Of a DNA stretch of 64,000 nucleotides, positions 7,501-41,378 are shown one piece after another. A program made the position numbers and the translations under genes. The stretch is from Thermanaerothrix daxensis (lineage in GTDB: Bacteria; Chloroflexota; Anaerolineae; Anaerolineales; Anaerolineaceae). The notes below the pieces were generated by a model. That model did no database searches. It was not told the DNA's origin and saw only the letters and a list, made by a program, of their open reading frames with translations. Each line of letters opens with the position of its first letter. Position 1 is the stretch's first letter. The stretch spans positions 558,001-622,000 of the forward strand of contig NZ_LGKO01000002.1 of the NCBI RefSeq assembly GCF_001306145.1. The letters are read 5' to 3'.

Positions 7501-7510
7501 AACTTATAAC

Positions 7511-9069: not shown

Positions 9070-9072
9070 GGG

Positions 9073-11145: not shown

Positions 11146-11170
11146 ACGTTCAAATCCTGGAAGTAAAATC

Positions 11171-12241: not shown

Positions 12242-12246
12242 TGGGG

Positions 12247-14415: not shown

Positions 14416-14431
14416 AGGTGGCCTTGGGGTC

Positions 14432-14701: not shown

Positions 14702-14714
14702 AAGGACTCCTCGC

Positions 14715-16009: not shown

Positions 16010-16011
16010 GG

Positions 16012-16392
16012 CTAGCCCTCTTTATCCCGTTTCTGTGAGATCAACTCACTAATTCGCACGCCGAATTTATCATCCACAACGACTACCTCGCCCCGTGCGA
16101 ACAGGCGGTCATTAACGTAAATGTCCACCAAGTCGCCAGCCAGGCGATCCAGTTCGACAACCGAACCGTTTTGCAAGTCCAACACCTGTCGTAGAGACAT
16201 CTGCGTGCGCCCCAGTTCCACCGTGACCCGGAGCAAGATATCATACAGCATGTCCAGGTTGGCTTTGCCATCTGTTGCCCCGACGCTTTTGGGGGGGACG
16301 GAGGATGGCACACGCTCAATGGGTGGAGTGACCTCGGATGGGCGTTCTTCGGGCTTCCGTTCGGGGATGGCGTTAGAGATATTTTCTTCCAT
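16012..16392 (-). CDS. fliN: Flagellar motor switch protein FliN
   Basis: FliN makes up the lower part of the C-ring and binds CheY-P and the export ATPase complex. The 126-residue protein has a Pro-rich N-terminal third and a C-terminal SpoA domain: VTVELGRTQMSLRQVLDLQNGSVVELDRLAGDLVDIYVNDRLFARGEVVVVDDKFGVRI. This is a standard FliN rather than a FliY, since there is no CheC-like domain fused to it. It follows fliM by 33 bases. Confidence 0.95.
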   Translation of the reverse strand: MEENISNAIPERKPEERPSEVTPPIERVPSSVPPKSVGATDGKANLDMLYDILLRVTVELGRTQMSLRQVLDLQNGSVVELDRLAGDLVDIYVNDRLFARGEVVVVDDKFGVRISELISQKRDKEG

Positions 16393-16425
16393 GACTCGGG
16401 TTCCTCTGGCTCTAAATAGTATGGG

Positions 16426-17454
16426 TCAGGCAGGCTCATTGATCTTTCCAGTGATTTGAACGGCCAAGTGTTTACCTACTTTGCCGATGCGGGCATAGAA
16501 CTTATCTTTATGGGCTACTTGGACGGTCAGATCTTGTTGAATGTTGGTATCCAGGACAATCACGTCCCCCACTTGTAGGTTGAGTACTTCACGTAAGCGC
16601 ATTTGACAACTTCCCAGCCACACGTTGACCGGCAGGTAGACCTTATGCAGGTTCTCCAGAGCGATTTGTCGTGCAATCGGGTCAATTTGCTTTTCCTTGC
16701 GTCCTGAAATCCAAACGTGGGGATTGAGATCGTTGGCAATGGGTTTGAGGGTGCTAAATGGGATGTAAATGCTCATGGTGCCGGTGGTGTTCTGGATTGT
16801 CATTTCAAATGTGAGGCACATTACCCGCTCATTGCCCATGAACATTTGCACCCAGTGCTGATTAATCGTGCTGTCTTCCAGGGTAGGTTCGATTGAGACC
16901 ACTTTGCTCCAAGCGGCTTTGATGTCGTTGAGCATGTTTTCTACCAGGTCGCGAAGGAGCGATTGGTCAATATCGGTGAGGGGGCGGTCTTTGCGATTCA
17001 AGTTGGAAAGTTTTCCGCCCAACAACTGTTCTAGCATGATTCGATCAATGTTCGGGCTGAAGGTCAGGACGATGCGTCCGGGCAGAGGCGCCAGGATAAT
17101 CATGTGATACAGACTGTTGGGGGGCATGTCCTTAAGAAAATCATGGAAGCGCCCCTGCTCGGTGTGGACCATGCGGGGTTTCAGGTTGGTGCGCAGGATG
17201 GTAGGCAGAGAGGTCGCCAGGCGTTCGGCTAAGTCCTCGTGCACCAGTTCCACCGCTCGCATTTGCTCTTTCGAGAAGCGGTCCGGTGACCAGAAGTTGT
17301 AGGTGCTGATATTGCGCCCTTTCTCAGTTTTCTCGCGCGGCGCTGCAGGAGTCTGGCCCATTAACTCGGCGAGGTTGATGCTTCCCCCGTCCCCGGACTT
17401 TTCCAGTTCGATGGCACCGCTTAGCAAGGCGTCAATCTCAGCCTGCGTGAGCAT
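16426..17454 (-). CDS. fliM: Flagellar motor switch protein FliM
   Basis: FliM links CheY-P binding to rotor switching. The 342-residue protein starts with the CheY-binding peptide (MLTQAEIDALLSG), followed by the CheC-like middle domain (with ERLATSLPTILRTNLKP and DRIMLEQLLGGKL) and a C-terminal SpoA domain (VNVWLGSCQMRLREVLNLQVGDVIVLD). Length is typical. It lies between fliL and fliN. Confidence 0.97.
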   Translation of the reverse strand: MLTQAEIDALLSGAIELEKSGDGGSINLAELMGQTPAAPREKTEKGRNISTYNFWSPDRFSKEQMRAVELVHEDLAERLATSLPTILRTNLKPRMVHTEQGRFHDFLKDMPPNSLYHMIILAPLPGRIVLTFSPNIDRIMLEQLLGGKLSNLNRKDRPLTDIDQSLLRDLVENMLNDIKAAWSKVVSIEPTLEDSTINQHWVQMFMGNERVMCLTFEMTIQNTTGTMSIYIPFSTLKPIANDLNPHVWISGRKEKQIDPIARQIALENLHKVYLPVNVWLGSCQMRLREVLNLQVGDVIVLDTNIQQDLTVQVAHKDKFYARIGKVGKHLAVQITGKINEPA

Positions 17455-26713: not shown

Positions 26714-27805
26714 TCAACCCTGTAGGAAATGAGTGCTCCGAATGTGAGCATAGGTATTCAAAATGGTGTTCACATTTTCTTGAATTCCCTGGCTCAGAGC
26801 GAACAGGTAAGGCTCCCGTTCTGCGTGTTCTTTATAATCCCCAAGGTGGTCAATCAATTCCAACAAAGCGTTTTCCCATGCATAGGGATCATTGCGAACC
26901 AGCGTTCCGAAATCCTTGAGGTCTTCGTAAGGAGCACCCTGGCTGGCAACCCAAGGTACTTTCATAATCATATATTCGAGTACCTTAATCCAGGAACGAC
27001 GCTGGTCATAGGCTCCCTGCAAGGGGGCGATGCCGATATCGAACATGCTCAGGTATTGAGGCCACTTGTCCGGATCTGTCCAGGGAAGGAAAAATTTTTG
27101 CGATTGAGAGACATTGAGGGCTTGAAAAATGCGTTCGTCGCCGCAGATCAAAATGCGTACTTGAGGGCGGCGAAGGCAGACGCGCCGTAAGGCCTTGAGA
27201 ACCCCGCTTTCGGTAAACGAGTGGAGGTGCGAGAGGCTGCCACCCCACCCGATGACAATTCCCTCATGGGGGGTGGGGCGCAGGTTCAAATAGCGGGGCA
27301 GGTCGAGGTAGTTGGGGACATAGTGGATGGGGGTGTGAGTTTGCCAATCCGATGCCAACAAACGGGAAGGGACGGTGGCGGCATGGGCCAGTTGGAGCCC
27401 CCATTGGAATTGGGTCAGTGGCGGTGGCTGGATGGTGGTGTGGAAAGGCTTACCATTAGGATCGGTCTGGGTGAGGCGTCCTTCCGCCCAGAAGGTGTAG
27501 TTTTTGGCCTGTGGTGGAATTAAGTGATAGGCATCATCAAAATCGAGGATGATGGTCTTATCGCGGGCTTTCCAGTATTGCATTGCCTGCAGAACTGGCC
27601 CGAAAGCATTGCGTTGCACCACAATCACCTCGGCTTCTTCGCAGGCGGATTGCACTTCAGGTGTATGATAGGCAAAGTGGTCAATGCGTATCAAGGTAGC
27701 ACTATGGCGCCCAGTGGCTTGAATGGCACGGGCTGGGATGACACACCGCCATTCGGCGGAGTTCCATTCTTCGGTAGAATCAGCCACTACATACACGATC
27801 TTCAT
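26714..27805 (-). CDS. Glycosyltransferase-like protein
   Basis: The 363-residue protein begins MKIVYVVADSTEEWNSAEWR and has a two-lobe GT-B layout with a linker: AEVIVVQRNAFGPVLQAMQYWKARDKTIILDFDDAY in the N-lobe, and GIVIGWGGSLSHLHSF, RRPQVRILICGDE, SMFDIGIAPLQG and KVLEYMIMKVPWVASQGAPYEDL in the C-lobe. It resembles the C-terminal halves of the two TPR-containing neighbours. The ATG at 27805 overlaps the preceding stop by 4 bases; a longer frame exists but is atypical. Donor and acceptor are unknown; flagellin is a plausible acceptor from context. Confidence 0.85.
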   Translation of the reverse strand: MKIVYVVADSTEEWNSAEWRCVIPARAIQATGRHSATLIRIDHFAYHTPEVQSACEEAEVIVVQRNAFGPVLQAMQYWKARDKTIILDFDDAYHLIPPQAKNYTFWAEGRLTQTDPNGKPFHTTIQPPPLTQFQWGLQLAHAATVPSRLLASDWQTHTPIHYVPNYLDLPRYLNLRPTPHEGIVIGWGGSLSHLHSFTESGVLKALRRVCLRRPQVRILICGDERIFQALNVSQSQKFFLPWTDPDKWPQYLSMFDIGIAPLQGAYDQRRSWIKVLEYMIMKVPWVASQGAPYEDLKDFGTLVRNDPYAWENALLELIDHLGDYKEHAEREPYLFALSQGIQENVNTILNTYAHIRSTHFLQG

Positions 27806-29478
27806 GTTAATCCCAATGCAACCGGATTGGGTGTAGCGGGCAAGGAGGTTTTTGTGCGATTTGGGGCCAGAAGTAGATTTCCGATCAGGGCTTTCCATAA
27901 AACAGCAAGGTGCCGACTCTCACGCAGGGCGGCCTGAGCCGCGCCAGCGCGTCCCAACTGGCGTCGTACTTCGGCTTCGACAATGAGTTGACGGAGATAA
28001 GTATGCCATTCCTCCGCGGTTGAAGCGATAAACCCACCTGCACCCCACTCCAGGTAAGCGGGGAGGGGAGAAGCGACCCATGGGATGCCTCTAACCCCGG
28101 CGTGAATCAACAGGCGCTCTGAGAGGGATTGGTTGAAGGGAATATTTCGATGCGGAAGGAGCAGGATATCTACCAACCCCAATTGATACGGTAGATCTTC
28201 TACAGAAGTAGCGGGTAGATACAGGCAGCGTTCAGGCGGTAACCCACTGAAAAGGGTGTAGGCTTCGGGGTTATCAATCAAGACCAGGCGCGTCTGAGGG
28301 AATTCGCGCAAAACTCTGAGGACAATGCGACGGATGGTGGCTAGATCTTCCACATCCGAACAACTGCCCACCCATCCCAAATGAATGGTAGGGCGTGGAA
28401 GGGGCTTTTTCTTCCACATCGGATTTTGATCGGACCAGCCTTCCGGCATCACTTCGATGCGCCGCCCCGTTCCCTCCAGGGCCATGGCATGCGCCTCAGA
28501 TGTTACAGTAATGACATCGGCCAGCCACAGACTGGCGTTATACGCGCGCGCCGCTTCCAACGTACCTAATCCCAGAGTTGTGTAGTATGGATGTTTTAAG
28601 GGGATCTGCTCTACGTTGCAGGTCAGGTCGAGTACCACCGGACGCCGGGCACCTGCGCAAAGGGCGAGGTTGACCATGGCGGATGTAGAAGTGTAGGGGT
28701 TTATGGCGATCACGGCATCAATGCTCTCAAGGTTGGCTGCAGAGATCTCACCATTGACCTGGATCTGGAATCCTCCGGCTTCCAGAGCGCTCCGAATTAC
28801 CTGGGCACGCTCCTGGGTCGGTGGGTTTGCAGAGGCCAGCAGCAGAATGCGCACTTGCGAAGAGAATGGGGGATCGGCCTCGGCTCCGGTTGGGGCAATG
28901 AGCGAAGTCACGTTCTGGCGCAAACCTTCAAGCGCATTCGCCAGTTCGATTTTCCCTTCCTGGCGCGCTTGCTGCAGATTCAACTCAATCAGTGCTGGAA
29001 GTAATTGCTCGATTTCATCTAAATGCTCGGCAACGGTTTTGGCCGGTTGCTCGCTTTGCAGCACCGCACGGAGCAGGCCTGCAGCCTTCTGAGCAGTGGG
29101 TTCGTCCACGGGGTGAGGTTTGCCGGTAAGGCGGTTAAGCAGCCGGCGCAATGTGGCCGGATGGGTGGGGGGATCAGCGGGAAAATTTGGGGCAGAGTCT
29201 GGTTCGTTCTGCACCAACTGAAGGCGACGAAGAATCTCAGGATGATCTGGTTGTACTTTTTCAGCTCGTTGATAGAGATGGTAAGCGACATTCACCTCTT
29301 CAGCGGCCAGGTACAAATCGCCCAGAATGAGCAGCGATTCCCAATCCTCGGGATGGTTTTGCACGATTTCGGCCAGCAGGCTCACACCTTCCTCAAGACG
29401 GTTAGCGCTGAGGTAGGCGCGAGCCATGCTCTTTTGGATATTTAGCGGGCTGGGGAAGCGATTGGAAACCGTGTCCAT
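27802..29478 (-). CDS. TPR domain glycosyltransferase-like protein
   Basis: The 558-residue protein starts with TPR-like helices (ARAYLSANRLEEGVSLLAEIVQNHPEDWESLLILGDLYLAAEEVNVAYHLYQRAEKVQPDHPEILRRL), a helical middle, and a GT-B-like C-terminal region with LGWVGSCSDVEDLATIRRIVLRVL, LVDILLLPHRNIPFNQSLSERLLIHAGVRGIPWVASPLPAYLEWGAGGFIA. TPR plus glycosyltransferase is the architecture of protein O-glycosyltransferases and related enzymes. It starts the small cluster with the next two genes and is a paralogue of the gene at 29594-31192. Confidence 0.85.
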   Translation of the reverse strand: MDTVSNRFPSPLNIQKSMARAYLSANRLEEGVSLLAEIVQNHPEDWESLLILGDLYLAAEEVNVAYHLYQRAEKVQPDHPEILRRLQLVQNEPDSAPNFPADPPTHPATLRRLLNRLTGKPHPVDEPTAQKAAGLLRAVLQSEQPAKTVAEHLDEIEQLLPALIELNLQQARQEGKIELANALEGLRQNVTSLIAPTGAEADPPFSSQVRILLLASANPPTQERAQVIRSALEAGGFQIQVNGEISAANLESIDAVIAINPYTSTSAMVNLALCAGARRPVVLDLTCNVEQIPLKHPYYTTLGLGTLEAARAYNASLWLADVITVTSEAHAMALEGTGRRIEVMPEGWSDQNPMWKKKPLPRPTIHLGWVGSCSDVEDLATIRRIVLRVLREFPQTRLVLIDNPEAYTLFSGLPPERCLYLPATSVEDLPYQLGLVDILLLPHRNIPFNQSLSERLLIHAGVRGIPWVASPLPAYLEWGAGGFIASTAEEWHTYLRQLIVEAEVRRQLGRAGAAQAALRESRHLAVLWKALIGNLLLAPNRTKTSLPATPNPVALGLT

Positions 29479-29542
29479 CCGTAGACGTCCGACTTCGTGC
29501 GGGTTTTGTATTAAGCATAAAAAGAAAGTTTGTTAGTACGCG

Positions 29543-29568
29543 TAAAAGGGCAATGAAAGCCCCGTAAA
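29543..29568 (+). promoter_or_regulatory. TAAA-N14-CCCGTAAA motif of unknown role
   Basis: The 115-base gap between the two TPR-glycosyltransferase genes holds TAAAAGGG, 10 bases, CCCGTAAA. The same spacing and -10-like part appear upstream of the M23 gene at 31258. It resembles a sigma-28 promoter one base short in the spacer, but on this strand no forward gene follows. On the minus strand the same bases give two direct CCTTTTACG repeats 26 bases apart, upstream of the gene at 29478, so it may be an operator instead. Confidence 0.35.
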
Positions 29569-29593
29569 AGGCGGCTTAATGTGAGCAGCGAAT

Positions 29594-31192
29594 TTAGAGT
29601 GTTTCCAGCAGCGTTTTCCAGAGTCCGATCACCTCCCGATTGCGTTCTTCACTCTTCTTGTGACCGACGGTTCCCAGTTGCTGACGTAAGGCGGGATCCT
29701 GAATCAGGGTGCTAATTGCATCGGCCCAGGATGAGGGTGTTTCAGCGAAGATCCCGCCACTTTCCCAGGCGCAATAAGCAGGTAAAGGAGAGGCCACCCA
29801 CGGCAAACGACGGGCTCCGGCCTCTACCAATTTGATATCAGACTTGGCCTGGTTAAAGCGCGTATTGGCAAGCGGGGCAAGCAAGATGTCAAATTGAGCC
29901 AGGAGAAGCGGATATTCCGCATGGGCACAGAATGGTAGAAACCATCTTTGTCGTTCGGGTAGCGATCTAAACATCTCGAGGATCTGCGGGTCACCCCCGA
30001 TGACCAAAGTAACCTCTGGGTGGTGACGAAGAAAATAGAGCAGTTCGTTTCGAATAAAGTGAAGATCTTCCCAGTGAGTGCTTGTTCCTGCCCACCCCAG
30101 GTGGATGCCGGTGTGGGGGGGAGCGGGCTTTTCCCAGTTGGGGTTTTCATCGTCCCAGCCGTTGGGTATGACTTGTACCCGGCGTGCAAGAGGAGCGTAA
30201 CGCTCACCCAGGATGGGCGTTGATACCACCAGCACTGAGGCGGCACCAATTGCCAGTTCAAGTGCCCGCAGGATGTTAGGATTCCCAGGCCCGCAGAGGT
30301 AATAGCCGGGATGATGGACCGGGAGGTTATGAAAGTCATCATCAATGTCTACAATGATTGTTTTTCCCTGGCGCACACATTCAGCCAGGGCTTGCATGTT
30401 CTCACGGCGAATGTGAGGGCGAAGAAAGATCACGATGTCGGCGCCGGATAGATCATGCGGGCTCGGATTAAGAACGTAAGTGGTGTTCGCTCCGGCTTTT
30501 CTTAACCAGCGCGCGGGCAGGTACATACGGAAATCGGAGACCTCGCCACTTCCACAGAAGAGAATTTGTTTTGGGATAGGTGGCAATGATTGGGGCTTTT
30601 GGGGGGCGGGGGGCGAGGATGTTGGCATTTTGTCCAGTGAGCGCAAGGCATCTCTGGTCTGAGGGTGATCGGGGTAGTTGCGAAGGATCTCGGTGTATAA
30701 GCGCCTTGCAGCCTGCGGGTTGCCAAGTTTCGTGTAGCATTGTCCCAACCAGAGGCGTAGTTCGACCTCGTCTGGAAGTTCAAGGAGCAATGCATCCAGT
30801 ATCTGGGCGGCATGGGTATAGTCCCCGGTTTGCAAAAAGATTAGCGCCAGGTGCTTTCGTGCCAGGAGGTTTTCATGATCAAGTGCAATGGCCTGCTCAA
30901 AAGCAGCTTGCGCTTCCTCGAGGGCGCCATCCATGAGCAAGGCTACTCCCAGGTTGTTGTAAGCCTCAGCGGAGGCGGGTTGAGATTTCACCAGCGTCTC
31001 CAGGGTTTCGCGGGCTTCTTTTGCCATCCCCAGTTGTAGAAAACACACGCCCAATATGGAGAGTATGGCGGGGTGATCGGGTTGAACTTGCTGCGCCTGT
31101 TGTAGCGCCTCCAGCGCTTCGGCCCAGTTTTGGGCCTGGAGGGCTTCCTCGGCCTGGTGCAACCAGGCATCCACTAGAATTACCTCACCCAT
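29594..31192 (-). CDS. TPR domain glycosyltransferase-like protein
   Basis: From the ATG at 31192 (AAGGGG site 6 bases upstream) the protein is 532 residues. It has about five TPR units (for example VQPDHPAILSILGVCFLQLGMAKEARETLETLVKSQPASAEAYNNLGVALLMDGALEEAQAAFEQAIALDH) followed by a GT-B-like region: KTIIVDIDDDFHNL, RVQVIPNGWDDENPNWEKP, HLGWAGTSTHWEDL and LAQFDILLAPLANTRFNQAKSDIKLVEAGARRLPWVASPLPAY. A longer frame to 31291 adds atypical residues. Paralogous to its neighbour at 27802-29478; probably modifies a surface protein or glycan. Confidence 0.87.
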   Translation of the reverse strand: MGEVILVDAWLHQAEEALQAQNWAEALEALQQAQQVQPDHPAILSILGVCFLQLGMAKEARETLETLVKSQPASAEAYNNLGVALLMDGALEEAQAAFEQAIALDHENLLARKHLALIFLQTGDYTHAAQILDALLLELPDEVELRLWLGQCYTKLGNPQAARRLYTEILRNYPDHPQTRDALRSLDKMPTSSPPAPQKPQSLPPIPKQILFCGSGEVSDFRMYLPARWLRKAGANTTYVLNPSPHDLSGADIVIFLRPHIRRENMQALAECVRQGKTIIVDIDDDFHNLPVHHPGYYLCGPGNPNILRALELAIGAASVLVVSTPILGERYAPLARRVQVIPNGWDDENPNWEKPAPPHTGIHLGWAGTSTHWEDLHFIRNELLYFLRHHPEVTLVIGGDPQILEMFRSLPERQRWFLPFCAHAEYPLLLAQFDILLAPLANTRFNQAKSDIKLVEAGARRLPWVASPLPAYCAWESGGIFAETPSSWADAISTLIQDPALRQQLGTVGHKKSEERNREVIGLWKTLLETL

Positions 31193-31229
31193 AGAAAACC
31201 CCTTGAGCAGAATAGAGCCACCGAATTGG

Positions 31230-31235
31230 ATTATA
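31230..31235 (-). promoter_or_regulatory. Candidate -10 box for the TPR-glycosyltransferase gene
   Basis: On the minus strand a perfect TATAAT lies 38 bases upstream of the ATG at 31192. No good -35 is present at 16-18 bases, so strength is uncertain. Confidence 0.4.
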
Positions 31236-31257
31236 GGGAAAGGATGGTAAATTCCCA

Positions 31258-31283
31258 TAAAGGGAGGTTGAAAAGGCCGTAAA
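31258..31283 (+). promoter_or_regulatory. Sigma-28-like promoter upstream of M23 peptidase and chemotaxis genes
   Basis: TAAAGGGA, 10 bases, GCCGTAAA. The TAAA and CCG elements match the FliA consensus, but the spacer is one base shorter than in the flgM promoter at 4701. It lies about 75 bases upstream of the first gene of the rightward chemotaxis run, where FliA control is common in other bacteria. Confidence 0.5.
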
Positions 31284-31356
31284 TTCTGCATGAAGGGTTT
31301 TCTGACCCAATAGAATGCTCACGCTCTCCTTACCTATAAGGGAGTGAAAGATTTTT

Positions 31357-32121: not shown

Positions 32122-34362
32122 ATGAGCCTTCAATTTGATCTGAGCCCCGATGAATTGCCGATTTTTCTTGCCGAGACGGATGAGCACCTTCAAGTTTTAG
32201 ATGAGGGTTTGGTGCGCCTTGAGCGAAACGATTATGATGAAGGCTTAATCCAGGCGCTCTTTCGGGCCGCCCACACCCTTAAGGGATCGGCAGGCCTGAT
32301 CGGACATCGCCGTTTGGTGGATTTAACTCATGCCCTGGAGACGGTGTTTGATGCATTGCGAAAACACACCCTTCAGGTGACCCCTGGGCTCATTGATTTG
32401 TGCTTGCAAGGGGTGGATGCATTGCGCTGGCTACGGGATGAAGTGGTGTCACTGCAACCCAGTCCAGTTGATGTTGTCCCTTTAGTTCAGCAGTTTCTGG
32501 CCCAGATTTCATCTTCGCCCGGGGGCGTTGTCTCTCCGGTTGTTTCTTCGCAGGTGGAGCCTGCACCGGTTCGTCCCGAAGAGCCCGTCTCAGGGCAAGG
32601 TGAGTTGCAGGTGTGGGTGCAAATCTCATCTGAGAGCGTGGCTTCTGCGGCGCGAGCGTTACAAGTACTGCTGGTACTGCAAGAATTGGGTGAGTTGCTC
32701 GAGTCCCGCCCCACCCAGGCTGAGATTGAAACTGCAGCCCCAGTCCATCAACTAACGGTGAGGGTGCGCACTACACAACCAGTTTCGGAGGTGAGGCGTC
32801 GCCTGGAGCAAATCAGCGAATTGGAGCGGGTAGAAGTCCAAGCACCTTCAGCGGAAATCTCCCCGTCTACTTCTGCTTTTTCCCAGGCGGAAACACCAGA
32901 AACTGAGGGAGAGGAGCCGGAGCGGCTGGGGGATTATCTGATTCGTAAAGGATGGATCACGGCGACCCAGTTGAAGCTGGCGCTGGAGGAGCAAAAACGT
33001 CGTCCGCGTGGGACTTTATTGGGCAGCGTGCTGGTTCAAATGGGGTTCATCTCGCAAGCCACATTGGATCGGGCACTGGCAGATTTACTACAGGAGCATC
33101 GCCGAGCGCTGGCAGCCATGCAGGCTACAATGGCGGAGCAGCGGGCGCGTGAGACGGGGGTAGATAAAACCGTACGCACCAGTGTCGAACGTCTAGATGC
33201 GCTCATGAATTTGATCGGGGAATTGATTACCGATCGAAATCGGCTTTACCAGATCCGCAATCAGTTTCAGTCCACCTTTCAGGGGCATGAACATGTGATG
33301 GCCCTGGCCGATACGATTATGCACCTGAGCCGTATCACGGATCAATTGCAAGAAGAGGTGATGCGGATTCGCATGGTGCCGATTTCGAGCGTGTTTAGCA
33401 AGTTTCCACGCATGATGCGTGATTTAGCGCGTAAAGCCAACAAGGAGGTTGATCTGATCATTCATGGCGAGGATACCGAACTTGACCGCTCGGTGATTGA
33501 CGAGATCCACGATCCGCTCATTCATTTGGTGCGCAATGCGATTGATCACGGCATTGAGCCGCCAGCAGAGCGGATGAGAGTTGGAAAACCTTCACGTGGA
33601 CAGGTGGTTTTGACCGCACGCCACGAGCAAGGACGGATTGTCCTGACCGTAGAGGACGATGGGCGGGGAATTGATGTTGAGCGATTGAAAGCAGCTGCGG
33701 TCCAGAAAGGGCTGCTCCGCGAAAGCGAGGCGGCGACCTTGCCGCGCGAAAAAGCCATTGAGTTGATCTTCGCTTCCGGCCTCTCAACGGCCAAGCAGGT
33801 AACCGAGATCTCTGGCCGGGGGGTGGGAATGGATATTGTTCGCAATAACATTGAGCGCATTAACGGTTCTATTCTGGTTGAAACCACCCCGGGGCAAGGG
33901 ACGCGCTTTCAGATCATTTTACCGTTGACACTGGCGATTGTGCCGACCTTGCTGGTACGTGTAGAGGACACCGTGTTTGCCCTTCCTCTCACCGCTGTGA
34001 CGGAGGTTTTGAGGATCACTCCGCAGGAAATTCGCTCGGTAGGCCAGCGCCCGGTTTTTGTTTTACGCGATCAGGTACTCCCTTTGCTGCGCCTTCGCCA
34101 TGTCTTTGATTTTGCGCCTGCGCCGGCCACTAATGGTTATGAACATGTGGTCGTTGTGCGGGCTAATCAAAGAAGTGCAGGGCTCATTATTGACGAATTA
34201 ATCGGGGAGGAGGAGGTTGTTGTCAAGTCACTGGGTGGGCTGATCGGAGAAGTACCAGGTATTGCCAGTGCCGCAATTCTGGGTGATGGACGGGTCAGTC
34301 TTATTGTGGATGTGGCCGGCTTGCTCGGCTTGGTAGAGGCGGAGATGGCAATTTCAGGGTAA
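32122..34362 (+). CDS. cheA: Chemotaxis histidine kinase CheA with inserted MshEN-like domain
   Basis: CheA phosphorylates CheY and CheB in response to receptor arrays. The 746-residue protein has the Hpt domain (His51 in RAAHTLKGSAGLIGH), a ferredoxin-like middle region at about 155-245, and then a segment at about 270-335 (RLGDYLIRKGWITATQLKLALEEQKRR, LLGSVLVQMGFISQATLDRALADLL) that looks like an MshEN/GspE-N repeat and is not part of standard CheA. The dimerisation, kinase (HLVRNAIDHGIE, VEDDGRGID, GRGVGMDIV) and C-terminal CheW-like domains follow. All catalytic motifs appear intact. Confidence 0.96.
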   Translation: MSLQFDLSPDELPIFLAETDEHLQVLDEGLVRLERNDYDEGLIQALFRAAHTLKGSAGLIGHRRLVDLTHALETVFDALRKHTLQVTPGLIDLCLQGVDALRWLRDEVVSLQPSPVDVVPLVQQFLAQISSSPGGVVSPVVSSQVEPAPVRPEEPVSGQGELQVWVQISSESVASAARALQVLLVLQELGELLESRPTQAEIETAAPVHQLTVRVRTTQPVSEVRRRLEQISELERVEVQAPSAEISPSTSAFSQAETPETEGEEPERLGDYLIRKGWITATQLKLALEEQKRRPRGTLLGSVLVQMGFISQATLDRALADLLQEHRRALAAMQATMAEQRARETGVDKTVRTSVERLDALMNLIGELITDRNRLYQIRNQFQSTFQGHEHVMALADTIMHLSRITDQLQEEVMRIRMVPISSVFSKFPRMMRDLARKANKEVDLIIHGEDTELDRSVIDEIHDPLIHLVRNAIDHGIEPPAERMRVGKPSRGQVVLTARHEQGRIVLTVEDDGRGIDVERLKAAAVQKGLLRESEAATLPREKAIELIFASGLSTAKQVTEISGRGVGMDIVRNNIERINGSILVETTPGQGTRFQIILPLTLAIVPTLLVRVEDTVFALPLTAVTEVLRITPQEIRSVGQRPVFVLRDQVLPLLRLRHVFDFAPAPATNGYEHVVVVRANQRSAGLIIDELIGEEEVVVKSLGGLIGEVPGIASAAILGDGRVSLIVDVAGLLGLVEAEMAISG

Positions 34363-34374: not shown

Positions 34375-35004
34375 ATGAGCAAATTCCAACCAGACGCGCA
34401 TTTTGATGAACAGTTGTTAAAAGCGATGCGTCGAATCGCGGATGAGGGCGTGGCGCATGCCGCCCGTGGTTTTTCGGATATGGTGGGGGAAACGCTAAGC
34501 ATGATCCGCCCTCATGCGCTGCTCGTACCGGTTTCGCAACTTCCTCATATCTTTGGTTCTCCCGAGGATGAGGCGGTTGGAATTTACTTGCGCACTGAAG
34601 GCACCCTGGCTTGCCAGATTATGTTAGTTGTCCCGCTCAACAAAGCGCTGGAATTAGTGGATATGGTCATGGGGTTGCCTGCTGGGACAACTCGGGTTTT
34701 GGACCGATTGGAGCGCTCGGCGCTGGCCGAGGTCGGTAACTTGACGGCTTCTTTCTTCATTAATCGGGTGGCTGAACTAACTGGACACGAGGCGCGTCCC
34801 ACCCCACCTGCGGTGATTGTGGATATGTTAGGAGCGATTGTGGATATTGTGGTGGCAACCACAGGTGGTTTTGGTGAACATTTGTTATTGATCCGAGCGG
34901 GTTTCACATGTGGTCAGCGAACGGTGAACGCCGATTTCTGGGTGGTTCCAGACCCGGCAACCCTGAATATATTCCATTGGAATGAATCCTCGTTGCCGTT
35001 ATGA
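34375..35004 (+). CDS. cheC: CheC family CheY-P phosphatase
   Basis: CheC dephosphorylates CheY-P and is stimulated by CheD. The 209-residue protein has the CXC signature S-x3-E-x2-N followed by a Pro (RSALAEVGNLTASFFINRVAELTGHEARPTPP, about residues 120-150). An equivalent first site near the N-terminus is weak, so this may have one active site. It overlaps cheD by 4 bases, the classic cheC-cheD pairing. The N-terminal 20 residues extend beyond the fold. Confidence 0.87.
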   Translation: MSKFQPDAHFDEQLLKAMRRIADEGVAHAARGFSDMVGETLSMIRPHALLVPVSQLPHIFGSPEDEAVGIYLRTEGTLACQIMLVVPLNKALELVDMVMGLPAGTTRVLDRLERSALAEVGNLTASFFINRVAELTGHEARPTPPAVIVDMLGAIVDIVVATTGGFGEHLLLIRAGFTCGQRTVNADFWVVPDPATLNIFHWNESSLPL

Positions 35005-35486
35005 GCCAGATACTGAGCGTTGGATTGGGTGAGGCGGTTGTGTGCAAAGACCCTCGAGCGGTCCTGGTGGCTTATGGTCTGGGCTCATGTTTGGGAGTCG
35101 CCATGTACGATCCGGTGAATCGTCTGGCGGGTTTATTGCACGCCGTCTTACCAACCAGCGGAAACGGCTACCAGGATAATCCTTACAAATATGTGGATAG
35201 TGGAATTCAAGCCTTGGTGCAAGCCATGGAAGCGGCCGGTGCACAGCGTCGCTATTTGATTGTGAAATTGGTGGGCGGAGCAAATATGCTTTTGAGTTCG
35301 GCGCTCTCGCATACATTTGAGATTGGAACGCGCAATGTTCAAGCAGCCTATTCTATCTTGGAGGCCATGGGTTTGAAGGTTGCAGGTGTTGAGGTAGGAG
35401 GTAACGTCGGTCGAACGGTTAAGTTGTTTGTCGAATCGGGAAAACTGGTTGTACGTCGCATTGGAGGCGTGGAACAGACGCTTTGA
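35001..35486 (+). CDS. cheD: Chemoreceptor glutamine deamidase CheD
   Basis: CheD deamidates receptor glutamines and partners CheC. The 161-residue protein shows the catalytic Cys in YGLGSCLGVAMYD, the His in AGLLHAVLP and the conserved KYVDSGIQALVQAMEAAGA and KLVGGANML segments, with GGNVGRTV near the end. Size is normal. Its ATG overlaps the cheC stop. Confidence 0.95.
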   Translation: MSQILSVGLGEAVVCKDPRAVLVAYGLGSCLGVAMYDPVNRLAGLLHAVLPTSGNGYQDNPYKYVDSGIQALVQAMEAAGAQRRYLIVKLVGGANMLLSSALSHTFEIGTRNVQAAYSILEAMGLKVAGVEVGGNVGRTVKLFVESGKLVVRRIGGVEQTL

Positions 35487-35520
35487 CAGCAAATCACTTT
35501 CTGATCAAAGAGGAGTGGCT

Positions 35521-35877
35521 ATGGCAACTGTGCTTGTGGTGGATGATGCTGAATTTCTCAGGGTACGCATCTCAAAGATGCTGGTGGCCGAAGGCTATCA
35601 GGTCATCGAAGCCGAGAATGGGGCGGCAGCCGTTGAGAAATACAAGGCGGAACGGCCAGATGTGGTGTTAATGGATATCACCATGCCAGAGATGGATGGC
35701 CTCACCGCGCTCAAAAACATTCGGGCTTTTGATCCGCAGGCGAAAGTGGTGATGCTAACTGCCCTGGGGCAAGAGTCGGTGGTGTTGGAGGCCGTGAAAT
35801 CGGGAGCACGTGATTTTGTTGTTAAACCCTTTAACCAGGAACGGGTGCTAAGTGCATTGCAAAAACTCCTAGGGTGA
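35521..35877 (+). CDS. cheY: Chemotaxis response regulator CheY
   Basis: The 118-residue single receiver has VVDDAEFLR, Asp in DVVLMDITMPEMDG, Thr in VVMLTALGQ and Lys in DFVVKPFN. CheY-P binds FliM to change rotor behaviour. The ATG at 35521 is preceded by GAGGAG at good spacing; an in-frame upstream start inside cheD would add 31 atypical residues. It sits between cheD and cheB. Confidence 0.95.
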   Translation: MATVLVVDDAEFLRVRISKMLVAEGYQVIEAENGAAAVEKYKAERPDVVLMDITMPEMDGLTALKNIRAFDPQAKVVMLTALGQESVVLEAVKSGARDFVVKPFNQERVLSALQKLLG

Positions 35878-35890
35878 TCTCGAGGGGTCT

Positions 35891-36997
35891 ATGGCATCTG
35901 GGGCGGAAGCAAATAGCCCAATTCGGGTTCTGGTGGTGGATGATTCGGCCTATATGCGCTTCACCATCACCCGCTATCTGAGTGAAGTGCCAGATATTCA
36001 GGTGGTGGGGGTGGCGCGAGACGGTGAAGAGGCGCTGGAGATGATTCCCCGCTTGAACCCGCAGGTGGTCACCCTGGATGTCGAGATGCCGCGCATGGAC
36101 GGTCTGAGCACTTTGCAGGAGATCATGCGCACTCAACCTCGACCGGTAATCATGCTGAGCAGTTTGACAAAGGAGGGGGCGCAGGAAACGGTACGGGCTT
36201 TGACGTTGGGGGCTGTGGATTTTGTTGCTAAACCGGAGAGCAAAGCCAATATCCAGACAGTACTGGATGAGGTGGTGCAAAAAATTCGACGCGCGGCCCA
36301 GGTGCAAGTGCGTGCCCTCCCGTGGGCTACTCGGCAGGAGGTCACCGCAAGTGGGCATAGCGCCGTTGTTAAAGAAACGCGCCCCTGGCGAGATGAGGAT
36401 GTTCTTGTTGTTATTGGGGCCTCAACGGGCGGCCCGCGGGCACTCAACGAGCTGGTGCCAGCCCTGCCTGCAGATATGCGTGCGGCGCTTCTGATCGTGC
36501 AGCACATGCCTGCGGGATTCACACGCTCGCTGGCACAACGTCTGGATGCCCTCTCCAATTTCAAGATCAAAGAAGCGGCCCCGGGTGATCGCCTGGAGGT
36601 GGGGTTAGGACTGGTAGCACCAGGTGGCTTTCACCTCACTCTGGATGCAAACGGGGTCGTTAATTTGAACCAGAATCCGCCAGTCCACGGGGTACGGCCG
36701 GCCGTGGATGTCACTCTGCTCTCGGTAGCGCAGAATTTTGCTTCTCGGACGTTGGGGGTGATTCTGACCGGGATGGGCAATGACGGCGCAAACGGTGCTG
36801 CTTTAATCCATGCTTCGGGTGGATATGTGATCGCTGAGGACGAATCCACAGCAGTGGTATGGGGGATGCCGCGCAGTGTCATCGAGGCACGGGCAGCAGA
36901 TGCGGTATTACCTCTGCATGCCATCCCTGCTGCAATCGAACAGCTGGTTCGCCAGCGCAGGAATGGGTGGAGAGGGGGGATCCATGGAACGGCTTGA
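35891..36997 (+). CDS. cheB: Chemotaxis protein-glutamate methylesterase CheB
   Basis: CheB removes methyl groups from chemoreceptors. The 368-residue protein has an N-terminal receiver (VVDDSAYMR, Asp in VVTLDVEMPRMDG, Lys in DFVAKPES) and a C-terminal methylesterase with the Ser-His-Asp triad in IGASTGGPRAL, IVQHMPAGFT and LTGMGNDGANG. It overlaps cheR by 14 bases. Confidence 0.97.
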   Translation: MASGAEANSPIRVLVVDDSAYMRFTITRYLSEVPDIQVVGVARDGEEALEMIPRLNPQVVTLDVEMPRMDGLSTLQEIMRTQPRPVIMLSSLTKEGAQETVRALTLGAVDFVAKPESKANIQTVLDEVVQKIRRAAQVQVRALPWATRQEVTASGHSAVVKETRPWRDEDVLVVIGASTGGPRALNELVPALPADMRAALLIVQHMPAGFTRSLAQRLDALSNFKIKEAAPGDRLEVGLGLVAPGGFHLTLDANGVVNLNQNPPVHGVRPAVDVTLLSVAQNFASRTLGVILTGMGNDGANGAALIHASGGYVIAEDESTAVVWGMPRSVIEARAADAVLPLHAIPAAIEQLVRQRRNGWRGGIHGTA

Positions 36998-37784
36998 GTA
37001 CGAACGGGTTAAAGTCTCAATCAAGACCCTGCTGGGGATTGACCTCTCGTACTACAAGGACGAGCAGATGCGTCGCCGTCTGGATTCGTGGCTGGCGCGT
37101 TCTAATAAGGCATCCTGGGATGAGTATTTTGCCTGGATAAGACGAGATGAGCAGGAACGGCAGCGGTTGCGTGATTACCTTACGATCAATGTAAGCGAAT
37201 TTTTCCGTGATCCCGAACGCTGGCAACTCCTGCGCACAAACATTATGCCGCGTTTGCTTCAGGAACAACGTCAGGCCCGACGCCCTCGCCTGCGTATCTG
37301 GAGTGCGGGTTGCTCTACGGGTCAGGAAGCCTACTCGCTGGCAATGTTGTGTGATGAGATGGGAATACGTCCGACGCCTTACATACTGGCTACTGATCTG
37401 GATCGGGGAGCTCTAAAGAAGGCCGTTGCGCGTGGCCCTTACATCGCGGAGGAAGTTCGGCACGTTTCTCCTCCTTTACTGCAACGCTACTTTGAGCCTG
37501 GCGGTCCTCCCTATTTTGTGCGTGAAGGCCTGGCGCAGAAGGTGCTCTTTCATGAGCAAAATTTGTTGGCAGATCCATTTGAGGAGGATTTCGATCTAAT
37601 CATCTGCCGCAACGTGGTTATTTATTTCACCAATGAAGCCAAGGAGACTCTCTATAAGAAATTCAATCAAGCGTTGCGTCCGGGAGGATTTTTGTTCCTG
37701 GGCGGAACGGAAATCATTTCTCATCCTCAGGCCTATGGATTCACCAGTTTTCAGATCTCTTTTTACATGAAGAAGGTGGTATGA
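36984..37784 (+). CDS. cheR: Chemotaxis protein methyltransferase CheR
   Basis: CheR methylates receptor glutamates with S-adenosylmethionine. From the ATG at 36984 (GGGGGGA upstream) it is 266 residues: N-terminal helical domain, then TINVSEFFRDPERW, the SAM-binding WSAGCSTGQEAYSLAMLCDE, DLDRGALKKAVARGPY and DLIICRNVVIYF. A longer frame to 36876 lies inside cheB and is atypical. It overlaps the next gene by 4 bases. Confidence 0.96.
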   Translation: MERLEYERVKVSIKTLLGIDLSYYKDEQMRRRLDSWLARSNKASWDEYFAWIRRDEQERQRLRDYLTINVSEFFRDPERWQLLRTNIMPRLLQEQRQARRPRLRIWSAGCSTGQEAYSLAMLCDEMGIRPTPYILATDLDRGALKKAVARGPYIAEEVRHVSPPLLQRYFEPGGPPYFVREGLAQKVLFHEQNLLADPFEEDFDLIICRNVVIYFTNEAKETLYKKFNQALRPGGFLFLGGTEIISHPQAYGFTSFQISFYMKKVV

Positions 37785-38641
37785 CCTCACCCCGATTCAA
37801 TCTCGAGGTTCTTTTACGACGCATTGGCGACCTGCCTCCTCTTTCGCAGGCGGTCAATAAGGCTCTGGAATTAATCCGCAATCCCAAGTCCAATCTGGCC
37901 GAGGTCGCGAATGTGTTAGCACTGGATCAATCTATGGCCAGTTTGATCTTGCGCTGGGCGAATTCGGCTTATTACAGCCCTCTCCAGCCCATTAAGACGG
38001 TGCATCAGGCGGTGGCCTACCTGGGGCAAAATGCAGTGCAAAGCCTGATTCTTACTGCCTCAGTCGCTGCATTGATGGACCGCCCGGTACCGGGATATCG
38101 TCTGGATCGCGGGGAGTTGTGGAAACACGCTGTGGGTGTGGCCGGAGGGGCGCGTCTGGCAGTGCAGCATTTGGGTCCTCGGGTTGCTGAGGAAGCTTAT
38201 CACGCTGGCTTGCTGTGTGATATTGGGAAACTAGCCTTTGAGGTGCTATTGCGGACGTTAGATCCTTTTGAGGGCACTTGGGAGCAGATGCCGTTTGACT
38301 ACTTGGAGCGTCATTACTTTGGTGTTGATCATGCAACCTTAGGCGGCGAACTGGCACGGCGCTGGAATTTGCCCTCCCCATTGCCAGAGGCAATTGCGTT
38401 TCACCATCGGCCCAGCCTGGCCGGAGATGGGGTTGTCCTGGCGGCCGCGGTGCATGTTGCGGATGCCGCCATGATGATGTTTGGGATTGGCCTAGGATGT
38501 GATGGTTTGCAATATCAGTTGGATTTGCGTGCGTTCCAGATTTTAGGTTTGGATGAGGGGTTCTTTGAATATATGCTCCCGCGTGTAAGTGCTTTGATCG
38601 AAGAGGCGGAGCATTATATCGGTTTAATGCGGCGGGGCTAA
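37781..38641 (+). CDS. HDOD domain signalling protein of the chemotaxis operon
   Basis: A 286-residue HDOD protein: LPPLSQAVNKALELIRNPKSNLAEVANVLALDQSMASLILRWANSAYYS, then AVAYLGQNAVQSLILTASVAALM, AYHAGLLCDIGKLAFEVL (HD-like metal motif changed to CDIGK), and GVDHATLGGELARRWNLP, IAFHHRP. The loss of the HD His suggests it is a sensor or scaffold, not a phosphodiesterase. It resembles the HDOD protein at 13576-14415 in the flagellar operon. Confidence 0.9.
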   Translation: MTSPRFNLEVLLRRIGDLPPLSQAVNKALELIRNPKSNLAEVANVLALDQSMASLILRWANSAYYSPLQPIKTVHQAVAYLGQNAVQSLILTASVAALMDRPVPGYRLDRGELWKHAVGVAGGARLAVQHLGPRVAEEAYHAGLLCDIGKLAFEVLLRTLDPFEGTWEQMPFDYLERHYFGVDHATLGGELARRWNLPSPLPEAIAFHHRPSLAGDGVVLAAAVHVADAAMMMFGIGLGCDGLQYQLDLRAFQILGLDEGFFEYMLPRVSALIEEAEHYIGLMRRG

Positions 38642-38668
38642 GTTTCATCTTCAGAAAGGAATCTGGTT

Positions 38669-39187
38669 ATGAATGTTAACTTCCTAAATCCTTTCGTAGA
38701 AGCCGCAAACGAGGTGTTAATGGCAGAGATGAACGTGAGCACCTCGCGAGGGCCGCTTTCTTTGCACAAATCTGCTTTGACCACCGATGATGTGACGGTA
38801 CTCATCAGTCTGGTAGATCAACTGCAAGGGGTGGTTCTCTACGGCCTTTCGTATGATACGGCGCTCAAATTCGTTTCGCTCATGATGGGGCAGGAGTTTC
38901 GGGAATTTGACAATCTTGCCCAAAGCGGTATTGCGGAATTGGGCAATGTGATTACGGGTCGGGCTACGATCAAACTGGCTGAGGCGGGGTATCGGACGAA
39001 CATTTCACCGCCTACCCTGGTCTCTGGGCGAGGGGTTCAAATCTCCACACTGGACTTTCCACGTTTGGTTGTTCCCTTACAAACAAGCCTGGGCGATTTA
39101 ACCGTGCATCTGGCGGTGCGTGAAGCCTCGCCGGATACGCGAGGGGGAAACTTTATTCCTCTGGCTGTCAACGGCGCTGGCCAGTGA
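38669..39187 (+). CDS. cheX: CheX-type phosphatase, first tandem copy
   Basis: The 172-residue protein begins MNVNFLNPFVEAANEVLMAEMNV and has the CheX pattern: TVLISLVDQLQGVVLYGLSYDTALKFVSLMMG, then GIAELGNVITGRATIKLAEAG with the catalytic E-x2-N. CheX dephosphorylates CheY-P. It is followed after 15 bases by a related copy, so two CheX proteins plus one CheC serve one operon. Confidence 0.9.
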   Translation: MNVNFLNPFVEAANEVLMAEMNVSTSRGPLSLHKSALTTDDVTVLISLVDQLQGVVLYGLSYDTALKFVSLMMGQEFREFDNLAQSGIAELGNVITGRATIKLAEAGYRTNISPPTLVSGRGVQISTLDFPRLVVPLQTSLGDLTVHLAVREASPDTRGGNFIPLAVNGAGQ

Positions 39188-39202
39188 TTAGCGAAAGGAA
39201 GG

Positions 39203-39724
39203 ATGATGATGAATGTTAAATTTCTCAATCCATTCGTTGAGGCTGCCTTTGAAGTGTTGAAGGCGGAGACCGGCTTTAGCCTGAGGCGGGGGGATTTAGG
39301 GCTGGAAAAGGGCGTTTATGTTACCGAGGATTTGACGGTCATCCTCTCCCTGGTGGGCCAGGTGGAGGGGACTGTGTTTTATTCCATGGGGATGCCGACA
39401 GCATTGGCTTTGGTCTCACAAATGATGGCTTCTGAAGTCGCATCCCTGGATCCTTTGGCCCAAAGTGCGGTGGCAGAACTGGGAAATGTCATCACCGGAC
39501 GAGCCAGCGTGAAACTCTCCCACGCAGGGTATGAGTCGGTGATTTCGCCGCCGACCTTGCTTCTGGGGGCCGGTGCGCGTATCTCGACCCTGGACTTTCC
39601 GCGTCTAATCGTGCCGCTAGAGTTTGGGGGCGGGCAGGTGACGATTCATCTTGCTTTACGCGAGGGGAGGGGCAATGTTGTGCGAAGCGGGCAATTGCCT
39701 ACTCCACCACGCCCAGAAGTTTGA
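39203..39724 (+). CDS. cheX: CheX-type phosphatase, second tandem copy
   Basis: The 173-residue paralogue of the preceding gene keeps NVKFLNPFVEAAFEVLKAETG, TVILSLVGQVEGTVFYSM and AVAELGNVITGRASVKLSHAG with the E-x2-N catalytic pair. The two differ most at their C-termini. Three overlapping ATG codons begin it (39203, 39206, 39212 region); GAAAGGAAGG precedes. The duplication looks old since many positions differ. Confidence 0.9.
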   Translation: MMMNVKFLNPFVEAAFEVLKAETGFSLRRGDLGLEKGVYVTEDLTVILSLVGQVEGTVFYSMGMPTALALVSQMMASEVASLDPLAQSAVAELGNVITGRASVKLSHAGYESVISPPTLLLGAGARISTLDFPRLIVPLEFGGGQVTIHLALREGRGNVVRSGQLPTPPRPEV

Positions 39725-39744
39725 AATTGGGGAGAGCCGAATCA

Positions 39745-40530
39745 ATGGGCCGCACTATAGCGATTGTCAACCAAAAAGGTGGCGTTGCAAAAACAACCAC
39801 ATGTCTTTCGCTTGGCGCGTGTCTGGCAGAACAAGGACACCGGGTATTGCTGATAGACTTAGACCCACAAATGAACTTGAGCGTTTGCGCGGGTGTACGG
39901 GATCCTTTGGAAGATGGGAGCGTCGTGGATTGGCTGGCACATGGGCTGGATCCTCATGATGATAATTCCCGTTTCACCGTGATTGCTTTGCCGCCGGATG
40001 GGTTGACCTTACTTCCTGGCGATCCTGGTTTGGTAAGCCTTGAGCGACGGCTTGTTGAAGTGCCCGGTTATGAATTTGGATTGCGGAATGCAATAAATTC
40101 GGTTGCCAGTGATTATGAGTACATCCTAATTGACTGTTCACCTTCTCTGGGACCGCTGACACTAATGGCGCTAACGGCAGCCCAGCATGTTGTTGTCCCT
40201 GTGCCTGCGGATTACCTGGCGGCTTGGGGGCTCATGCAACTCATTACTACCATTGAAGCGGTCAAAGAGCGCACAAACCCTGTTTTGGATTACTCCTTGT
40301 TGTGCGTGATGTTTGACCGTCGAAATAGTATTAGCCATTCGATGCTGGAGCGTCTGCGGGCCTCCTTCGCGGACCGACTGTGGCAGACAGTGATCGGGTT
40401 AGATACTCGCCTGCGTGAGGCAGCCGCAGCGGGGGAGCCCATCCTGCGCTATGCGCCTAAATCGCGAGCGGCTCAGCACTACCGACAATGGGCACGAGAA
40501 ATATTGGCGTTCTTTGAGGAACTGAAATAG
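39745..40530 (+). CDS. ParA/MinD-type ATPase of the chemotaxis operon (ParC-like)
   Basis: The 261-residue ATPase has the deviant Walker A motif NQKGGVAKTTT, switch I-like DLDPQMNLS, Walker B YILIDCSPSLG and the PVPADYLAAWGLMQL region. Members found in chemotaxis operons position receptor arrays, as ParC does in Vibrio. ATG at 39745 is preferred to a TTG at 39721 that overlaps cheX. It sits 11 bases before a CheW with a long N-terminal extension. Confidence 0.9.
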   Translation: MGRTIAIVNQKGGVAKTTTCLSLGACLAEQGHRVLLIDLDPQMNLSVCAGVRDPLEDGSVVDWLAHGLDPHDDNSRFTVIALPPDGLTLLPGDPGLVSLERRLVEVPGYEFGLRNAINSVASDYEYILIDCSPSLGPLTLMALTAAQHVVVPVPADYLAAWGLMQLITTIEAVKERTNPVLDYSLLCVMFDRRNSISHSMLERLRASFADRLWQTVIGLDTRLREAAAAGEPILRYAPKSRAAQHYRQWAREILAFFEELK

Positions 40531-40541: not shown

Positions 40542-41378
40542 ATGGGACGACGGGATAAACTCAGCCAGGCTCTGGATCAGCTTTTCTCCGCTGGGTTAAA
40601 GAAAGTCCCCAAGGTAGACACTGGAGACGTTGTTCTATTCCCAGATGTTGCCCAATCAGATAGCCTGAAAGGAAATGATAGGGGTGATGGGGACCTGCCA
40701 GGATTGGAGCAAAAGGTCACGGAGGTTTCTGAGGTATCTTGCTCTGAACCCCCTTTGCCTTCTCAAGATAGAGGTGCTGTTGAAACTGGTCCTGCTGGGG
40801 CGGGTATGCTTGAAGTGCAGGTGAAACCCGCGGTGGGCGAGCAAGCGCATGCCTCTCAGGTTGAATCTGCTCCTCAGGCAGATGAGCAAATGGTGATTTT
40901 TGCTCTTGGCGAAGTGGCTTATGGGTTGCGGGTGGAGGCGGTGGAGGCCATTATTAAGATGCAGCCAATTACCCGAGTGCCCAAGACCCCTGCATATATT
41001 CGGGGGGTTACCAATCTGCGTGGGGCTGTTTTGCCGGTTGTTGATCTGAACCGACGGCTGGGGCGATCTCAGGCCCCGGAAAATTCAGAGACACGGATCA
41101 TTGTGGTGCGTAGCCCGATTGGGTTGGCTGGGCTGGTGGTAGATCGCGTAGATTCGGTACGCCAGGTACCTGCCAGCCTGATTGAGCCACCCCCACCAAT
41201 AGCGCGAACCGATAATACGGCTTACTTAAGAGGCGTGGCACGGCTTGAGGAGGGGCTGGTGCTTTTGCTGGATTTAGAACGCCTGCTGCAAAATCTAGGA
41301 GCGCGGGCCCAGGGGAAGTCGTTTTACGGCACAATACCCGCACAGGCTACCTTATCGGCCGGGAACTCTGCGCGCTGA
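40542..41378 (+). CDS. cheW: CheW-domain protein with long N-terminal extension
   Basis: CheW couples receptors to CheA. The 278-residue product has a 120-residue acidic, low-complexity N-terminal part and a C-terminal CheW domain (VIFALGEVAYGLRVEAVEAIIKMQPITRVPKTPAYIRGVTNLRGAVLPVVDLNRRLG, then TRIIVVRSPIGLAGLVVDRVDSVRQVP and LRGVARLEEGLVLLLDLERLL). The extension and the adjacent ParA gene recall the ParC-ParP pair, in which ParP carries a CheW-like part. Its 3' end overlaps the convergent gene by 55 bases. Confidence 0.93.
   Translation: MGRRDKLSQALDQLFSAGLKKVPKVDTGDVVLFPDVAQSDSLKGNDRGDGDLPGLEQKVTEVSEVSCSEPPLPSQDRGAVETGPAGAGMLEVQVKPAVGEQAHASQVESAPQADEQMVIFALGEVAYGLRVEAVEAIIKMQPITRVPKTPAYIRGVTNLRGAVLPVVDLNRRLGRSQAPENSETRIIVVRSPIGLAGLVVDRVDSVRQVPASLIEPPPPIARTDNTAYLRGVARLEEGLVLLLDLERLLQNLGARAQGKSFYGTIPAQATLSAGNSAR

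Follow-up and report, generated by a model that had tools for sequence, protein, structure and literature searches.

A MshEN_N-type c-di-GMP motif module between P2 and P3 of a CheA of Thermanaerothrix daxensis, with an altered second half-site

The CheA chemotaxis kinase encoded in a window of the Thermanaerothrix daxensis genome (the whole stretch of DNA that was analysed, 64,000 nucleotides, positions 558,001 to 622,000 of contig NZ_LGKO01000002.1) contains an insert that is MshEN_N, the ligand-binding N-terminal half of MshEN. It is believed, with a probability of about 0.5, that this is the CheA of the flagellar chemotaxis system and that the module binds c-di-GMP in the wider family of such kinases, with binding weakened or absent in T. 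daxensis. The features of the gene are given below, with positions in the window.

32122 to 34362, forward strand: cheA, single open frame, 746 aa, recognized by its Pfam domains
32161 to 32427, forward strand: Hpt domain (P1), residues 14-102 (PF01627, 3.5e-17)
32608 to 32841, forward strand: P2 response-regulator-binding domain, residues 163-240 (PF07194, 7.5e-12)
32923 to 33087, forward strand: MshEN_N-type c-di-GMP motif module, residues 268-322 (NF053729, fold match 5htl)
32923 to 32994, forward strand: motif I, residues 268-291, contact residues kept, Gln291
33016 to 33087, forward strand: motif II, residues 299-322, Gly301 kept, Leu299 at position 1, Leu322 in place of Gln
33166 to 33369, forward strand: P3 dimerisation domain (H-kinase_dim), residues 349-416 (PF02895, 1.6e-15)
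33514 to 33930, forward strand: P4 kinase ATPase (HATPase_c), residues 465-603 (PF02518, 1.6e-19)
33949 to 34329, forward strand: P5 CheW-like domain, residues 610-736 (PF01584, 5.4e-27)

The Hpt, P2, dimerisation, ATPase and CheW domains follow one another in the order that defines the CheA class, and the catalytic motifs AAHTLKGSAG, HLVRNAIDHGIE, DDGRGID and GRGVGMD, which we take to be the phospho-acceptor and ATP-binding motifs of CheA, are present in the translation. On inspection, AAHTLKGSAG lies in the Hpt, where it presumably surrounds the phospho-acceptor His, and P4 has the N and G boxes.

The original prediction, made from the letters alone, placed an MshEN-like domain between the Hpt and kinase parts of this CheA. 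This is borne out by a fold match to MshE and by the NCBIfam profile NF053729 (c-di-GMP_motif, 'cyclic di-GMP-binding domain-containing protein, MshE-related'), which scores 60.8 bits (8e-17; curated cut-off 38) at residues 268-320, covering profile positions 1-51 of 53; the position can be narrowed to the P2-P3 linker. All 13 Anaerolineales inserts of alignment A1 are matched by NF053729 at 1e-5 or better. Searched against the PDB with phmmer, the T. daxensis segment finds PilF at 1.4e-16 (three GSPII domains summed) and MshE (5htl) at 1.3e-5, and a profile made from the 13 inserts gives 1.5e-29 for PilF and 2e-13 for MshE. With a profile of 26 non-Anaerolineales CheA modules, themselves picked by the Anaerolineales profile, the segment scores 51.6 bits and the best of 5000 shuffles 13.2. 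The AlphaFold2 model of the segment shows the four-helix MshEN_N bundle with a pLDDT of 82.7. By VIA-align it superimposes on MshE with c-di-GMP (5htl_A) with Z 9.9, rmsd 1.7 A and 38% identity over 60 residues, and on PilF GSPII-B (9gl5) with Z 8.9; a Z of 9.9 for a helical bundle is not decisive by itself and agrees with the sequence matches. The top Foldseek ranks are c-di-GMP complexes of MshE and PilF GSPII-B, none of them a match at E 0.001, the domain being short.

The Pfam model for MshEN, PF05157, a search with which had been proposed as a check of the prediction, has no match in this CheA or in the rest of the T. daxensis genome. Likewise, it is absent (Pfam, E 0.01) from six further insert-bearing CheAs (L124, L112, L109, L130, L105 and L067), and it matches 20 of 61 genomes of the phylum. 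Among six loci that do contain PF05157, the Pfam match takes up where the ligand motif stops, or one codon later, in four, and in the other two the motif begins 53 residues ahead of the match; these offsets were derived from locus lengths. PF05157 therefore starts past the ligand-binding half in these loci and appears to model the other MshEN subdomain, so its silence says little about the c-di-GMP motif, and it was dropped as the deciding test. The weak Pfam matches of DUF4388 and DUF2949 in the insert are under the cut-off for the T. daxensis protein and were rejected; DUF4388 weakly matches all 13 inserts and may hold a related half-motif. The module is easily overlooked, as the Pfam scans of this analysis did not reveal it. 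The silence of PF05157 is also what could be said for the rival view that a low-complexity linker resembles the motif by chance. This explanation is refuted by the curated profile scoring above its cut-off, by the far lower scores of the 5000 shuffles, by the fold match and by the recurrence of the module among named CheA loci (27 of the best 80 out of 594), and its probability is negligible.

Each MshEN half-site contacts its ligand through Arg-Leu-Gly, two Leu and one Gln (Wang et al., 2016; PMC5013675). A canonical receptor was taken to have (R/K/L)LGxx(L/V/I)(L/V/I)xxG(L/V/I)(L/V/I)xxxxLxxxLxxQ in both copies, with a 5-residue spacer and 53 residues in total. In the T. daxensis CheA, the 24-residue motifs I (RLGDYLIRKGWITATQLKLALEEQ) and II (LLGSVLVQMGFISQATLDRALADL), which are the segments quoted in the original prediction, are separated by seven residues instead of five, as in the binder PilF GSPII-C; spacers in the 40 CheA modules described below run from 1 to 17 residues. 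Every contact residue of half-site I is kept, and motif I fits the canonical pattern except at position 11, which makes no contact and is occupied by Trp both here and in the binder PilF GSPII-B. In half-site II, Leu is at position 1 and the Gly and Leu residues are in place, but Leu stands in for the terminal Gln, so the ligand residues that had been named as a check of the prediction are complete in motif I and not in motif II. With motif II incomplete, the module is therefore assigned to the family by sequence and fold, and not classed as a canonical receptor.

The consequences of such changes can be gauged from PilF. At the first motif position, Leu or Lys is compatible with binding (L196; K167L binds at 2 nM), while the change Q218E of the motif II Gln raises the KD from 6 to 460 nM; a single Gln-to-Glu change costs about 80- to 160-fold and leaves binding at 0.5-1 uM, and no binding is left when both Gln are changed (PMC11731258). 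PilF GSPII-A, without both Gln and the motif II Arg, is a non-binder (PMC12002112), and changes in this motif have cost XpsE its binding (PMC5013675). By analogy with PilF Q218E, the Leu in place of the motif II Gln is expected to lower the c-di-GMP affinity of the T. daxensis CheA below that of Gln-bearing relatives, and possibly there is no binding at all; the two outcomes, weak binding and none, are given roughly equal odds.

A c-di-GMP link had been described as not standard for CheA. This holds for the textbook CheA, but the association of MshEN with CheA and CheX was already stated by Wang et al. (2016; PMC5013675), and the module is present in the 27 named loci mentioned above. The MshEN-CheA fusion is thus known, and the T. 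daxensis copy adds another member, probably a weakened one to judge from its motifs. In the scan of named genomes, the best 80 CheA loci of 594 confirmed stretches were kept and the insert profile found the module in 27 of these 80, two others (L122 and L143) not being judgeable; the query was an alignment of insert-bearing sequences, therefore this is not an unbiased frequency. The 27 include Shewanella, Pseudomonas sp., Duganella, Sphaerotilus, Desulfovibrio, Magnetococcales, Nitrospirota, Nitrospinota and Planctomycetota, many of them metagenome bins. When seven modules from other phyla were scanned alone with NF053729, five passed (L109, L130, L105, L137 and L131) and two fell just short (L112 and L129); L124, scanned whole, scored 23.5. 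These three under the cut-off, among ten-odd modules from other phyla, count against the favoured explanation.

The contact Gln is kept in motif I of all 40 CheA modules compared (4.32 bits) and in motif II of 37 (3.82 bits), with 0.84-2.22 bits at the neighbouring motif positions 22 and 23, in a sample chosen with the profile of the inserts themselves. The set includes two modules of L137 and excludes L128 (one motif found), L039 (a copy of the window), L144 (not the CheA) and L040 (a sensor kinase). Gly3 belonged to the score by which the motifs were placed, so finding it in 40 of 40 is in part a result of the method; Gln24 took no part in placing them. This Gln is a ligand contact in the known structures and is conserved, therefore most such CheA modules are read as c-di-GMP binders. 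All three exceptions in motif II are from Anaerolineales: T. daxensis, Ornatilinea and L018.

Within the order, 32 of 201 genomes matched at 1e-40 and the insert is present in 13 of 30 loci fetched; within the family, matches at 1e-100 came from 20 of 147 genomes, and 7 of 18 new loci (L158-L175) have it. In the phylum, where 26 of 400 genomes matched at 1e-100, it is absent from the 22 new CheA loci (L041-L062, with L041 not judgeable). Among Chloroflexota, the insert is confined to Anaerolineales in this sample, which covered only the strong matches (1e-100) from an even draw. In a congener genome (88% complete), the best CheA-like match, at 2.6e-9, is a sensor kinase bearing the module. The CheA frame of genome G646 equals that of Ornatilinea apprima, a member of Anaerolineaceae, so this family is also the most likely one for the window.

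Such kinases are a second carrier. With the insert profile at E up to 0.1, the only other module found in the T. daxensis genome is N-terminal in a HisKA sensor kinase (L040; L154:6108-7220, C1:482200), some 76 kb upstream of the window. The genes for ParB and a T2SSE-type ATPase are nearby. NF053729 scores 40 bits here (cut-off 38), and the motif II Gln is replaced by Tyr. Across the family, the module is found at 1e-5 in 79 of 147 genomes, the frames being mostly some 300-500 aa long, and the 31 loci examined comprise 7 CheAs and 24 histidine kinases, the latter assigned by the H-box pattern, with Pfam confirmation for L040. The motif I Gln is present in 24 of 24 of these kinases and the motif II Gln in 18. 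As in the CheA, the module of L040 lies directly before the dimerising part of the kinase; unlike in the CheA, it is N-terminal in an ordinary HisKA kinase, and the spacer is 10-11 residues in the 24 kinases. No description of an MshEN_N sensor histidine kinase of Anaerolineaceae was found in the accessible part of the literature. Further MshEN-like matches in the family were seen in frames of about 690-760 and of 1315-1332 aa (G667, G671, G616, G681, G601, G174 and others).

In a tree of the kinase parts with 44 rows, the T. daxensis CheA belongs to a set of 15 CheAs (support 97/87), although this tree has long branches and its outgroup is not one side of a branch. Nine of the 15 have the module and six do not; one row scored as lacking it in this tree (L175) starts inside P3, where an insert is not judgeable. 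The motif II Gln is absent from all nine insert-bearing members, being replaced by Leu in five, by Phe in two identical proteins and by Thr in two near copies, and the motif I Gln is kept in all nine. Of 12 CheAs from the rest of the order, 11 keep the motif II Gln and one lacks it (Fisher p 3.4e-5 for the clade versus these 12, counting rows, not events). Since L067 is identical to L158, and L163 and L164 are near copies, the nine rows represent fewer independent cases; one early loss may explain them all. The pattern fits a history in which the second half-site was relaxed first and some members of the branch then lost the module.

That the change was a loss is what we infer, as counts of changes do not tell gain from loss. 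The 131-row FastTree of the kinase part has many open forks and omits L075, which was short. At least 13 changes on this tree are needed to account for the presence of the insert, and the starred branches force six; in 3 of the 91 rows without it (L041, L122 and L143) the frame starts too late for the linker to be judged. A module tree of 54 columns only does not separate one origin of the CheA insert from two: a grouping of the Anaerolineales CheA modules with those of the histidine kinases has a p-AU of 0.60, and all CheA modules are already on one side of a branch (95/92).

It is quite possible, although not the favoured explanation, that the T. daxensis module no longer binds c-di-GMP and serves as a structural spacer or dimer-stabilising bundle before P3, or is vanishing. 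The replacement of the motif II Gln by Leu, Phe or Thr in nine of nine insert-bearing members of the clade, the six members without any module and the Tyr at the same position in the histidine kinase of its own genus all agree with this, and degenerate, non-binding MshEN domains are known (PMC12002112, PMC5013675). However, the half-site I Gln was kept in nine of nine through the same divergence, the ligand-side Gly of motif II is also kept, and PilF with a single Gln lost still binds at about 0.5 uM (PMC11731258).

The asymmetry of this conservation, with half-site I complete and, in seven of the nine rows, a Leu or Phe where half-site II would have its Gln, could also point to another ligand: another guanine nucleotide, a protein partner, or one ligand held across the two half-sites I of a dimer. 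Since the module adjoins the dimerisation helices, its two copies would be expected near each other in the dimer, which would suit the last of these. Such a ligand is nevertheless improbable; it has no direct support, and the solved relatives that were met bind c-di-GMP within one module or bind nothing. A module that binds c-di-GMP in the wider family, with weak or no binding in T. daxensis, is preferred here.

The gene lies at the head of a chemotaxis cluster, with a flagellar cluster in the same window.

34375 to 35004, forward strand: CheC-like protein (PF04509, 8.7e-06)
35001 to 35486, forward strand: CheD (PF03975, 1.5e-28)
35509 to 35877, forward strand: CheY-like receiver (PF00072, 9.3e-33)
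35891 to 36997, forward strand: CheB (PF01339, 2e-62)
36876 to 37784, forward strand: CheR (PF01739, 1.1e-50), start uncertain, the listed frame overlapping cheB
37781 to 38641: HDOD protein in the che cluster
38669 to 39187, forward strand: CheX, first copy (PF13690, 5.4e-13)
39203 to 39724, forward strand: CheX, second copy (PF13690, 8.1e-14)
39721 to 40530: ParA-like ATPase between CheX and CheW (AAA_31, 7.1e-47)
40542 to 41378, forward strand: CheW-domain protein (PF01584, 2.4e-37)
1507 to 17454, reverse strand: flagellar gene cluster near the che cluster (flagellin, FlgK, FlgE/F/G, sigma factor, FlhA, FlhB, FliM)
13576 to 14535: HDOD protein in the flagellar cluster

The two consecutive CheX genes together with the CheC-like gene (34375-39724) provide three putative CheY phosphatases, and the ParA-like ATPase may, by an analogy that we assume, position the chemotaxis array. 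An SRP54-type GTPase adjoins FlhA and is FlhF-like by position. Between the two clusters, on the reverse strand (26714-31291), are three large frames that look by eye like TPR and/or glycosyltransferase proteins, and these possibly serve the glycosylation of flagellin or of the surface. In the genome there are nine GGDEF places, with GG[DE]EF in six of the eight loci fetched, and two PilZ places. Genes for flagella, chemotaxis and c-di-GMP signalling thus coexist in T. daxensis, and it is plausible that c-di-GMP signalling exists in the cell.

A mechanism can be proposed in which ligand binding, the effect on the kinase and the direction of this effect are all conditional. By analogy with PilF and MshE, c-di-GMP would be bound between the two 24-residue half-sites and would fix the bundle; the bound or free state would then pass through helix 4 into the dimerisation helices and the arrangement of P3 and P4, and the autophosphorylation rate of CheA would be set by the state of the ligand. 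The last helix is predicted to continue towards the dimerisation domain, therefore the state of the ligand could reach the P3/P4 arrangement; in the model of the module with P3, helix 4 runs into P3, which is only a hint at a pTM of 0.33 and a pLDDT of about 56 at the junction. In the T. daxensis lineage, half-site I is intact and half-site II lacks the Gln that holds the ribose-phosphate, on a branch where the module may be eroding and in places may have been lost.

YcgR provides a c-di-GMP link at the flagellar motor. The closest systems to the module itself are MshEN_N of MshE (V. cholerae) and GSPII-B/C of T. thermophilus PilF, which have the same two 24-residue motifs and four-helix bundle. 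Unlike these, the T. daxensis module sits in a CheA and lacks the MshEN_C subdomain, its spacer is seven residues instead of five and its motif II Gln is Leu. In the fusions of Wang et al. (2016; PMC5013675) MshEN is likewise tied to CheA, and no test on CheA was found in the accessible text of that paper. Nor was a test of binding or of kinase function for an MshEN-CheA found in the accessible parts of the literature, mostly papers available without subscription, and no MshEN-bearing CheA was found in those of PMC12943098, PMC7288161, PMC10333796, PMC10519070, PMC12564702, PMC8844925, PMC9061725, PMC8316039, PMC5544727, PMC5812497 and PMC10212136. From the parts of the sources available, a PilZ adaptor acts on the chemotaxis methyltransferase (CheR) and Cbp1, a PilZ-bearing chemoreceptor, acts at the receptor, whereas here the c-di-GMP-type sensor is within the kinase itself. 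In P. aeruginosa, CheA recruits and phosphorylates the phosphodiesterase Pch (PMC9061725); CheA itself is the partner, but the direction is reversed, from CheA to c-di-GMP. The links between c-di-GMP and chemotaxis that were met therefore act at the methyltransferase or the receptor, or run from CheA to a phosphodiesterase.

Across many bacteria, including Anaerolineales, Pseudomonadota, Thermodesulfobacteriota, Nitrospirota, Planctomycetota and others, CheA may be a direct c-di-GMP receptor, with the switch tuned down or decoupled in the T. daxensis lineage; this broader reading is put forward tentatively, at a little under even odds. If it is true, Pfam annotation misses the module, since PF05157 is without this half of the domain, and MshEN_N before the dimerisation domain would let the sessile or motile state directly tune the chemotaxis kinase. 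The Anaerolineales, with Gln-bearing, Gln-less and module-less CheAs, offer a natural comparison within one order. A c-di-GMP module in the kinase itself would join the two main motility signals at the central enzyme.
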